Source: Cupriavidus sp. D39 (GTDB lineage: Bacteria > Pseudomonadota > Gammaproteobacteria > Burkholderiales > Burkholderiaceae). Taken from it: a stretch of DNA of 64,000 bases. The stretch is from the NCBI RefSeq assembly GCF_026627925.1, contig NZ_JAPNLE010000006.1, positions 480,709 through 544,708 on the forward strand, given 5' to 3'. Below are positions 52,149 through 60,281 of the stretch, piece after piece. Every line of letters begins with the position of its first letter. Positions within the stretch are counted from its first letter, which is position 1. Below the pieces are notes generated by a model. That model worked only from the letters and a program-made list of their open reading frames with translations, was not told the DNA's origin and ran no database searches. The position numbers and the translations under genes were made by a program.

Positions 52149-54411
52149 ATGCGGTCTGAGCGGATCGGGGGCAGGATGCCATCTTGGCAGCATCCTGCCG
52201 AGCAGGCCGAGTGCGAATTGCGCCGCGCCAAGAACGCATTGCGCTTGTCGCAGGCCATCCACGACATCCTCCGACAGGCTTCGGACGAGTTCGACATGCT
52301 GGTTCAGGTCTGTGCGGCCCTGGTTGAGGCGGGCTGCCATACGGCAGCATGGTTGTCGCCAGGAAGGCCCGTGCTGGTGCGCAGCGCGCCCCGCGCCGAG
52401 GTGGATGTGGCGATGCTCGCTCGCTGGTTTGAAGGCTGGGACACGATTGCCGCCGAGTTGGCCGGCGTGGCGGCGCCGCTGGACGAGGGGCCGCTTGCGG
52501 TGCCTGGCGCAAGCAGGGCGGCGAGACTGGTGCTGCCCCTGCGCGACGCTGATCATTTCTTCGGCACGATCGCCGTCGCTCTGGGCGAGGGTTCCGACTT
52601 GGACGATGGGGTGGCGATCGAGCAGGCCGTCTCCGGAGTGGCCTTCGCCGTGGCCACCATGCGGGCCCGCGCCGGGCGTGCGCGCGATGAAACGGAACGA
52701 CAGTGCAGCGAGGCGCAGTTTGCGCGGGTGATGGCCTCGATCAAGGACGCCGTGTGGGCGATGTCCGCGCGCAGCGGCCAATGGGTCTACCTCAACGAGG
52801 CGTTCGAGAGAATCTGCGGCCGGCCGGCCGGCGTCCGGCTTCCTGCGCAATAAGCGCCTGTGGCGCGAGATCATCCACCCGGAAGACCTGGCGTCGCTGG
52901 TCAAGACATTTTCGGATCTGCACCAGGACGCTGCCAGCTGCCATGTCTTTCGTGTGGTCCGGCCGGATGGCGGGGTTCGCTGGGTCGAGGGTCGCACCAG
53001 TGTGATATGGGGCGCCAAGGGTCGTGTTTTGCGTCTCGCCGGCACGGCCACGGACATCACCGAGCGCATAATGTAAAAGACCAGCGTCAAGTATCTGGCC
53101 ACGCGTGACGGCCTGACCGGGCTGCCCAACCGGCATGTGCTGGTTGAACGCATCGGCCAGGCGCTTGCTAGAGCCCAGTCCGGCGCGGGCAGGCTGACAC
53201 TCGGTGTTCTGAACCTCGATGGCCTGAGGTTCATCAATAACAGCCTTGGTCACGAAGCCGGAGATGCGCTCCTGGCAGCCGTGGGGCAGCGTCTCCTGCG
53301 CGTAGTGGGCGTCCATGATACGCTGGCCCGGCTCGGAGGCGACGAGTTCGCGGTTCTGTTGACCGATAGCCCCTCTTCGCAGGCTCTCGCAGCGGTCGGC
53401 AGCGAGGTGCTCGCTTGCTTTGTCGGTCCTTTCGCCGTCGGTGAGCATGAACTGCACCTCTCCGCCAGCCTGGGGCTCGCAGTCTATCCCGAGGATGGCG
53501 ACAACACCGCCACCCTGCTGCAGCATGCGCATTCGGCCCTGCACAGGGCCAAGCAGGAGGGAGGGGCGTGCTGCCGCTTCTACGCCCGCAGCATGAGCGC
53601 CGATGCCGCCGAACGTATCCGGTTGGACCAGGCTTTGCGCGGAGCCATGGAGCGGGACGAGTTCGAACTGCACTACCAGCCGCAGATCGATCTGCGCTCG
53701 GGCGGCATCGCCGGTGTCGAGGCGCTGATTCGCTGGCACCAGCCTGAGCTTGGCCTGGTCTCGCCCGCGCGCTTCATCCCGCTGGCGGAGGAAACCGGGC
53801 TGATCGTGCCTCTGGGCGACTGGGTCATGCGCACGGCCTGCGCCCAGATGGCGGCTTGGCAACAAGCCGGCCTGGCCCCACCGCGCATCGCGGTCAACCT
53901 GTCCGCTCGGCAGCTCTGGCAGGGCCATGCGGCCGAGCGGGTCGCCGCCGTGCTGTGTGAGACAGGCATCCCGGCGGGCTGCCTGGAGGTGGAAATCACC
54001 GAGAGCGTAGTAATGCGAGACGGTGCCGAAGCCGTGCAGGCGCTGTCTGCCCTGCGGGCCCTGGGCGTCACGCTCGCGCTCGACGATTTCGGTACGGGTT
54101 ATTCCTCCCTCAGTCACCTCAGGTCACTGCCCCTCAACAAGCTCAAGATCGACCGGGCTTTTATTCAAGACCTGACGACCCGTTCCGACGTCGCCGTGCT
54201 GGTGCAGCAAATCATCCAGATCGGCCATGCGTTCAAGCTCCGCGTGGTCGCCGAAGGCGTCGAGACGCGGGAGACCGCCGATTTGCTGGCGCGCAGCGGT
54301 TGCGACGAGGTGCAAGGTTTTTATTTTGGCAAACCGCTTCCCGCGCAGGACCTCGAAGCCCTGCTGCGCCAGCATTCTCGTCGCCCCTCGTTAGCGGCCG
54401 TGAAACCATGA
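52149..54411 (+). pseudogene. GAF-PAS-GGDEF-EAL protein, frameshift and in-frame stop
   Basis: ATG 52149 starts a GAF-like domain (LRLSQAIHDILRQASDEF) and a PAS domain. The frame is lost near 52830 in a GGCC repeat: removing four bases gives ICGRPASGFLRNKRLW and HPEDLASLV. A TAA at 53074 then stops the frame just before YLATRDGLTGLPNR. The GGDEF domain is canonical (LGGDEF) but lacks the R of the RxxD inhibitory site. The EAL domain is complete (EALIRW, DDFGTGYSS, KIDRAF, AEGVET). It ends at 54411, overlapping the kinase start by ATGA. If repaired it would be a bifunctional c-di-GMP enzyme of about 750 residues and the first gene of the operon. Confidence 0.87.
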
Positions 54412-58192: not shown

Positions 58193-60281
58193 AAATCCTT
58201 TTGGTCGAAGACAACGCGGGGGATGCGCGGCTGCTTCGGGCCAGTATGGCCGAGGGCGGAGGCGCCTCCATCGATCTCGTCCATGTGACGCGGCTCGCCC
58301 ACGCCATCGACAGCGTGGTGCGGGACCGCTTCGATGCGATCTTGCTCGACCTGTCGCTGCCGGATGGGCACGGCAAGGATACGTTTGCACGCATGAATGC
58401 CCATGCTGCAGGGACGCCCATCGTGATTCTGACCGGCCTCGACGACGAAGGTTTCGCGTTCGGACTGGTACAGGCTGGGGCGCAGGATTACGTGGTCAAG
58501 TCCGAACTCGATGGCCGGACTCTGTTGCGTACCATCCGCTACGCGATCGAGCGCAAAAAACCGAGACCGAACTACGGCTCGCGGCCAAGGTCTTTGAGTG
58601 CACCCTGGAGGGTATTGTGATCGCCGACGCCGCCGCAGATATCCTGTCGGTGAACCACGCATTCACAACCCTGACCGGCTTTACGCTAGATGAGATGGCG
58701 GGCACCAGCCTATGGGACATCGGTGCTGGCCAGCATGACGCCCAATTCTTCCACGAAGTCCGGATGCGCCTGGAGCAAGGCGGGCAGTGGCGTGGCGAAT
58801 TCCTGAACCGGTGCAAGCTTGGAGCGCCGTTCCCCGCGTGGCTGAGCATCAGCGTGGTAGAAAACGCAGACCGCTCGGTGTCCCACTATGTCGCGGTGTT
58901 CACGGAGGTAAGCGCCCTCAAAATGTCCGAGCAGCGCCTGCAGCATCTCGCCCATCATGATCCCCTGACCGGGCTGCCCAACCGCGTTCTGTTCCATGAC
59001 CGCCTCGAACAAGCCATCAACCGCTCCCACCGCGACGGCAGCCTATTCGCCCTGATGTTCCTGGATATGGATCGCTTCAAGCTGATCAACGATTCGCTAG
59101 GCCACGCGGTCGGTGACCGTTTGCTCCAAGCCGTGGCATCCCGTCTGAAGGGCTGCCTGCGCGAGGTCGATACCGTGGCGCGTCTCGGCGGCGATGAGTT
59201 TGCCATCATCTTGTCCGATCTCCAGCGCGGCGAGGATGCGACGGTTGTGGCCGAGAAAATGGTCGCGACGCTGGGCATGCCCTACCTGCTCGAGCCGCAC
59301 GAGGTGTTTGTCACACCGAGTATCGGTGTCACCATTTATCCGGAGGGGCATGTGGACAAGGCCCGGCTGCTCGAAGGCGCCGACGTTGCGATGTACCAGG
59401 CCAAGGAAAATGGGCGCAACAATTTCCAGTACTATAGCGCCGACATGAATGAGGCAGCCTACGAGCGACTGAGAACCGAAACGAGCCTGCGGCGGGCGCT
59501 TGAGCGTAATGAGTTCATGCTTTACTACCAGCCCCAGATGGACCTGCAGACGGGTGCAATCGTCGGCGTGGAGGCGCTGATGCGATGGCAGCACCCCGAA
59601 CGGGGGCGCGTGTTGCCCGCCGAGTTCATTCCCATTTTGGAGGAAACTGGCCTGATTATCCCGGTGGGCGAGTGGGTTCTAGAAACCGCCTGCACCCACT
59701 TCAAGGCGTGGCTCGATGCCGGTATCGCGCCACGCCGGCTGGCCGTCAATCTTTCGCTGCGCCAGTTCCGGCACAGGAATCTGGTTGGGACCATAGCCGG
59801 CATCCTCGAGCGCACCGGCCTGTCAGGGCGCCATCTGGAGCTTGAAGTGAGCGAGAGCACGGTCATGGCCAATGTGCAGCTCACCGTCGCAATCCTGGAG
59901 CGTTTGAAGGTCCTGGGGATACAGATCGCGATTGACGATTTCGGGACAGGATCCTCCTCGCTCAGTCACCTCAAGAGCCTCCCCATCGATACGGTGAAGA
60001 TCGGGCATCCATTCGTGCTCGATATCCCGCACAGCCGCGACGACGCCGCCATCACGGCAGCCATTATCAGCCTGGCCCAAAGCATGCGGTTGACCAGTGT
60101 GGCCGAGGGCGTGGAAACAGAGGACCAGGCCTCCTTCTTGCGGCAGCAGCACTGCGACCAGATGCAGGGTTATCTGTTCGAAAAACCGCTGCCCTTGGAG
60201 GCCATGGCGGAAATGCTGCGGCGATGGGCCAGTGAAGCCATGCCCCATGCTGCCGATCTAAACCCGCGTATTTCGTGCTGA
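58189..60281 (+). pseudogene. REC-PAS-GGDEF-EAL response regulator, single-base frameshift
   Basis: ATG 58189 overlaps the previous stop. The receiver (Asp54 in ILLDLSLPDGHG) ends at AIERKK. The six-A run 58555-58560 needs one more A to continue with TETELRLAAKVFECTLEG and the PAS domain. GGDEF is canonical (LGGDEF) with RxxD (REVD). EAL has EALMRW, VNLSLRQF, DDFGTGSSS, AEGVET and QGYLFEKPL, with KIG for the usual KID. The repaired length is about 697 residues. It is the second receiver-linked c-di-GMP enzyme of the operon and, unlike the previous one, keeps a plausible phosphodiesterase. Confidence 0.88.

Follow-up and report, generated by a model that had tools for sequence, protein, structure and literature searches.

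We analysed a window of 64,000 nucleotides of Cupriavidus sp. D39, which forms the end of contig C6 (NZ_JAPNLE010000006.1) in a genome of 7.74 Mb and 11 contigs. At positions 52149–60281 it holds five forward-strand genes that overlap or abut each other and encode a histidine kinase with a globin domain, a bare receiver and three proteins with GGDEF and EAL domains, predicted to act on cyclic di-GMP (c-di-GMP). The kinase starts at 54408 in an ATGA overlap with gene 1, the lone receiver at 55992 immediately past the kinase stop, gene A at 56455 overlapping the stop of the lone receiver, and gene B at 58189 in an ATGA overlap with gene A. An earlier reading of the same DNA from its letters alone (the sequence-only reading) had reported these gene positions and junctions (54408, 55991/55992, 56455 and 58189), and they match our open reading frame (ORF) calls; its layout, other domains and phospho-acceptor His319 stand, whereas its haem ligand His113, a GAF domain in gene 1 and the intactness of the three enzymes are not confirmed. 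The features are as follows:

52149..54411, + strand: gene 1, PAS-GGDEF-EAL protein, frame-broken in the assembly (ORF calls, Pfam, motif alignment)
54408..55991, + strand: globin-PAS-histidine kinase, 527 amino acids, open
54465..54932, + strand: Protoglobin domain of the kinase, residues 20–175 (Pfam)
54741..54746, + strand: codons of Arg112 (canonical proximal-His column) and His113 (ligand in the sequence-only reading), from alignments
55362..55364, + strand: codon of His319, the expected phospho-acceptor (invariant in the alignment, within the HisKA match)
55992..56462, + strand: bare receiver of RcpA/Rcp1 type, 156 amino acids, open (Pfam, kinship to solved structures by sequence)
56455..58192, + strand: gene A, receiver-GGDEF-EAL protein, predicted cyclase with a dead EAL domain (Pfam, motif alignment)
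58189..60281, + strand: gene B, receiver-PAS-GGDEF-EAL protein, predicted cyclase/phosphodiesterase (Pfam, motif alignment)

Pfam agrees with the protoglobin kinase, the lone receiver and the two receiver-GGDEF-EAL proteins proposed before. The kinase consists of Protoglobin, PAS, HisKA and HATPase_c domains, and its Protoglobin match (82.8 bits; cut-off 25) lies ahead of the signalling output; His319 falls within the HisKA match and is unchanged across 15 aligned globin kinases. Gene A carries Response_reg, GGDEF and EAL domains, and gene B PAS, GGDEF and EAL past its receiver. In gene 1, PAS pieces in two frames are followed by GGDEF-EAL, and no GAF domain was found by Pfam even at an expectation value (E) ≤1. 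The lone receiver has a Response_reg domain only; its best solved relatives, RcpA (1k68, E 1.4e-50) and Rcp1 (1i3c, E 9e-48), are akin to it over the whole length, and it is 80% identical to its counterpart at locus L005. Rcp1 is paired with the phytochrome kinase Cph1, a light sensor; judging by sequence and fold matches, the kinase core and the bare receiver of the window are of this type, with globin-PAS in place of the light sensor.

Conservation of the gene order and of the enzyme motifs

We scanned species genomes with six peptide patterns (the best 80 of 181 relatives) and then 399 sampled genomes of the order, examining the neighbours for 20 stretches. Counting duplicate records once (L010/L132, L011/L133, L012/L135 and L083/L136), the two scans yielded 15 distinct other globin-kinase loci:

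L002, L003, L005, L006: Methylobacter, Methylomicrobium, a gammaproteobacterial metagenome-assembled genome (MAG) and Methylotuvimicrobium
L004, L007, L008, L009: Methylophilaceae
L010, L011, L012, L038, L134: Ferrovum and near kin by tree
L013: a Nitrospirae MAG
L136: same order as the window

In a match scan of 369 genomes, the best hit outside the window (G678) has nearly the contig position of L006 and probably represents that locus.

Behind the globin kinase, each of the 15 loci has a bare receiver and one or more receiver-GGDEF-EAL genes, so that the gene order which the sequence-only reading had proposed to look for elsewhere is found downstream of the kinase throughout. A second receiver-GGDEF-EAL gene is present in 8 loci (with a PAS domain seen in 5 of these second enzymes) and as a fragment in L003; the other 6 have a single enzyme. 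The operon is open in cultured methanotrophs, e.g. Methylotuvimicrobium buryatense. Gene 1 had been counted as part of the unit, but no conserved counterpart of it was found among the 15 loci, although a different GGDEF-EAL gene lies directly upstream in 6 of them; we therefore rejected it as a member of the operon.

Globin-less kinases of the same subfamily likewise adjoin a receiver of Rcp1 type as well as a receiver-output protein, which is often another kinase. After dropping 17 loci with less than 3.5 kb downstream (16 globin-less, 1 globin), we found a receiver-GGDEF gene within 4.5 kb of 12/12 globin kinases, but of only 5/51 globin-less ones (Fisher p 2e-9, kinship not corrected). In genomes of the same order (L137, L139–L147) the same globin type, with its canonical His present, is also found as a direct fusion to GGDEF-EAL.

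The two enzymes differ in a recurrent way, as judged by the known functional roles of EAL and GGDEF residues. In all ten gene A proteins compared (from L003 and from nine two-enzyme operons, the window's included) Gly, Asn or His takes the place of the second Asp in the DDFG loop, while GGDEF and RxxD are intact; the window protein reads DGFGGG at DDFGTG and GGVE at EGVE and so lacks the DD pair and this Glu of an active EAL phosphodiesterase. All nine gene B proteins, on the other hand, keep E, N, E, DD, K, E and Q of EAL as well as GGDEF with RxxD. This pattern predicts a cyclase with a dead EAL domain for gene A and a cyclase/phosphodiesterase for gene B, the phosphodiesterase part being unsure, and this predicted division of labour between first and second enzyme recurs among the two-enzyme operons. 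The single enzyme of five Ferrovum-type loci reads NGFDSG, whereas that of L013 keeps DD. Gene 1 keeps the EAL residues and has Asn for the metal Asp of GGDEF.

The kinase and its haem ligand

The sequence-only reading took the window kinase for a functional haem sensor in which His113 is the axial ligand and through which O2, nitric oxide (NO) or carbon monoxide (CO) acts on c-di-GMP. The Protoglobin match above cut-off, a predicted fold that is that of a normal globin (mean predicted local distance difference test score, pLDDT, 76.9), the retained distal Tyr of the haem pocket and the presence of His at both the 112 and the 113 columns in many relatives all favour such a sensor. However, the profile alignment is gapless here for five solved globins (HemAT 1or4, 2w31, 7o0i, 8h17 and AfGcHK 5ohe), and the proximal His of their H-x-R-x-G motif falls into the column of residue 112, which is Arg in the window kinase; His113 lies one residue further on, in a column that varies between H, Q, V, R, E, S and L. 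The canonical column is His in 29 of the 31 distinct other aligned globin proteins (exceptions: L008, Gln; L151, Leu). Structural matches report the first and last residue only, and their offsets at the two ends disagree by one; the choice between 112 and 113 therefore falls to the sequence alignments, which rule out His113 as the canonical ligand. With Arg at this position, haem sensing by the window copy is doubtful, direct control of it by O2, NO or CO is not supported, and we consider a sensor ligated by His113 unlikely.

The proximal ligand of AfGcHK is His99 (PMC8697598), and in NmpU of Myxococcus xanthus replacement of the matching His led to loss of haem and strongly reduced autokinase activity (PMC11841059). 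Most relatives of the window kinase likely bind haem, as predicted from the conserved column. Methylobacillus sp. MM3 has Gln at the canonical ligand position in an open operon. The two kinases without the canonical ligand may have kept their receiver and c-di-GMP output, with a haem-free sensor, or one whose haem is ligated one residue out of register, driving the conserved pair of cyclase and cyclase/phosphodiesterase; we put this forward very tentatively and regard it as improbable. Both offer a natural test of globin kinase function without normal haem ligation.

Broken reading frames and the origin of the operon

The four indel or stop positions suspected before are all seen: gene 1 is interrupted by a frame break near 52835 and by a stop near 53074, gene A shifts frame at about 58060–58085, and gene B does so at about 58554–58560 in a run of A, across which the similarity to orthologs is unbroken. 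None of the three GGDEF-EAL genes is thus intact in this assembly. A programmed frameshift at the A-run was considered and dropped, as gene B is a single open frame in 8 relatives.

To judge these breaks we turned to other coding sequences of the same genome. The first 16.4 kb of the window match best to Cupriavidus necator plasmid pENH92 (92.6% over 74% of the query), and the comparison, over 13,440 aligned coding bases, revealed four clean frame changes of one base; in each case the window lacks a base at or next to a run of G or C. A fifth one-base change, at the alignment edge, was excluded from this count. The only ileS found in the genome (C9:2661636–2663556) is likewise divided between two frames. 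ORFs of at least 250 amino acids cover, on average, about 0.65 of fourteen 20-kb stretches from this genome and 0.78 of seven from relatives; the values of the two stretches sampled on the C9 chromosome, 0.89 and 0.75, resemble those of the relatives, so contigs may vary in their error load.

No globin match (E ≤1e-5) was found in any of the 59 other genomes of the genus, which makes acquisition of the operon by transfer likely. In a quick tree of the kinases, the window kinase falls into a group (support 96) that comprises 11 globin kinases and 4 globin-less ones, and is nearest by path to Methylophilaceae. A transferred operon could have decayed in this genome, losing its enzymes and its haem site. 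Such decay would agree with the breaks in all three GGDEF-EAL genes, the loss of the proximal His, the lack of a globin match in the 59 other genomes of the genus and the position of the operon close to the contig end, yet the kinase and the lone receiver are open, and the one-base changes near G and C runs on the same contig together with the split ileS are explained by assembly errors. As neighbouring genes and ileS are frame-broken too, assembly error is likelier than decay; we rejected the breaks as proof of decay and hold that decay itself is rather unlikely.

A proposed branched pathway to c-di-GMP

We think it fairly probable that the genes are the Cupriavidus copy of a conserved operon in which a globin kinase feeds a bare receiver, a cyclase and a cyclase/phosphodiesterase by branched one-step transfer, with haem sensing doubtful in this copy. 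The features of a branched two-component system are present: the His of HisKA, the ATPase domain and the receiver acceptor motifs, which are retained in all three receivers of the window and in every receiver aligned. No Hpt domain was found in the cluster by Pfam (E ≤0.001 for the kinase, the receiver and gene A; E ≤1 for the pieces of gene 1 and for gene B past its break), and there is only one HisKA; this argues for one-step transfer rather than the branched phosphorelay proposed before, whereas branching from one kinase to two c-di-GMP enzymes remains the natural reading. Together with conserved synteny, this branching is what survives of the earlier interpretation; His113 as ligand, direct gas control in this copy, the phosphorelay and the membership of gene 1 are not supported.

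The soluble globin-PAS histidine kinase would autophosphorylate on His319 and pass its phosphate in one step to the three receivers. The bare Rcp1-type receiver may serve as a phosphate sink or as a second output, gene A would contribute a cyclase with a dead EAL domain and gene B a cyclase/phosphodiesterase, so that the state of the globin would set c-di-GMP via two enzymes simultaneously. In most relatives, with a normal proximal His, haem would be bound, and AfGcHK suggests by analogy that O2 is the likeliest ligand; the globin of the window copy may be haem-free or use His113 instead. While gene order, its conservation, the motifs and the missing His can be read directly from the DNA, we infer the phosphotransfer, the direction of its effect, the ligand and the acquisition of the operon by transfer.

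Several observations weigh against this proposal. With all three enzymes frame-broken, the unit may not work in this strain. The Asp after the catalytic Lys of gene B is Gly, Ser or Cys in all nine proteins (at about 60000–60005 in the window), which leaves its phosphodiesterase activity unsure, and the distal Tyr kept by the window globin favours retained haem. The kinase tree, with its four globin-less kinases among globin ones, requires three changes of the globin label, so a single origin of the globin fusion is not established. Finally, the census rests on a limited sample of genomes. That the kinase serves the bare receiver alone, as in phytochrome-Rcp1 pairs, with the receiver-GGDEF-EAL proteins answering other kinases, is improbable given that such a protein follows in 15/15 loci and that one kinase serves several receivers in the NmpU and HnoK systems.

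Parts of this architecture are known already, namely globin kinases with receiver-only and receiver-output partners and haem-controlled kinases that branch to c-di-GMP enzymes. NmpU-NmpT-NmpS of Myxococcus xanthus and AfGcHK of Anaeromyxobacter likewise combine a globin-coupled kinase with a receiver-only protein and a receiver-output protein encoded together, but their outputs are a hybrid kinase and a transcription regulator instead of one or two receiver-GGDEF-EAL enzymes (PMC11841059, PMC8697598). NmpU transfers phosphate to both NmpT and NmpS, so the earlier statement that known globin kinases have one regulator was too narrow; NmpT has two receivers, unlike the single, Rcp1-like bare receiver of the window (PMC11841059). 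HnoK of Shewanella oneidensis is a haem-controlled kinase branching to several receivers (HnoB, HnoC and HnoD), including one c-di-GMP enzyme, but NO is sensed there by a separate haem protein, an H-NOX, and the outputs comprise a phosphodiesterase, a transcription factor and an HD-GYP protein that is inactive; the text available mentions no cyclase (PMC6335343, PMC8846402). NosP-NahK-NarR is described as a further haem-controlled kinase system branching to c-di-GMP enzymes. Fused globin-coupled cyclases and globin-GGDEF-EAL proteins (DosC type; Acidithiobacillus, PMC6416229) share globin input and c-di-GMP output, but in one protein, whereas input and output are separate in the window and joined by predicted phosphotransfer; globin-GGDEF-EAL fusions are common in the window's order. 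Work on methanotroph signalling, in the part available, concerns a protoglobin chemoreceptor and not this kinase (PMC6956133). In the open-access literature searched, which mostly excludes subscription papers, none of the titles and abstracts listed describes the operon, and no globin kinase linked to both a cyclase and a cyclase/phosphodiesterase turned up. For c-di-GMP networks, a review describes direct stimulus links to histidine kinase sensory domains as still exceptionally rare (PMC8846402). The operon offers a compact, conserved test case with one sensor, a bare receiver, a predicted cyclase and a predicted bifunctional enzyme.

Upstream of the operon, an open gene at 45785–49582 encodes a CHASE-GAF-PAS-GGDEF-EAL protein (1265 amino acids) with NGDAF in place of the GGDEF motif and the EAL residues kept, probably a phosphodiesterase. 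Next, at 49649–51346, come genes for a universal stress protein and for a protein in which two LuxR-type helix-turn-helix domains stand in tandem (Pfam). The region 44602–45625 is 77% identical in DNA to an annotated IS30 transposase region of Caballeronia; the reverse-strand ORF at 44568–45782 gave no match in a Pfam search. Directly 3' of the operon, an ANTAR-domain protein (62.5 bits) is encoded at 60578–61138 on the same strand, followed by a weak KfrA_N match under the cut-off (61135–61851) and a PemK/MazF-like toxin-antitoxin protein (63233–63571); the surroundings near the contig end (61135–63571) are plasmid-like. At 12361–16455, in comparison with pENH92, about 350 bases of a cyclase-domain gene are doubled in the window, and this gene is divided into two overlapping ORFs.
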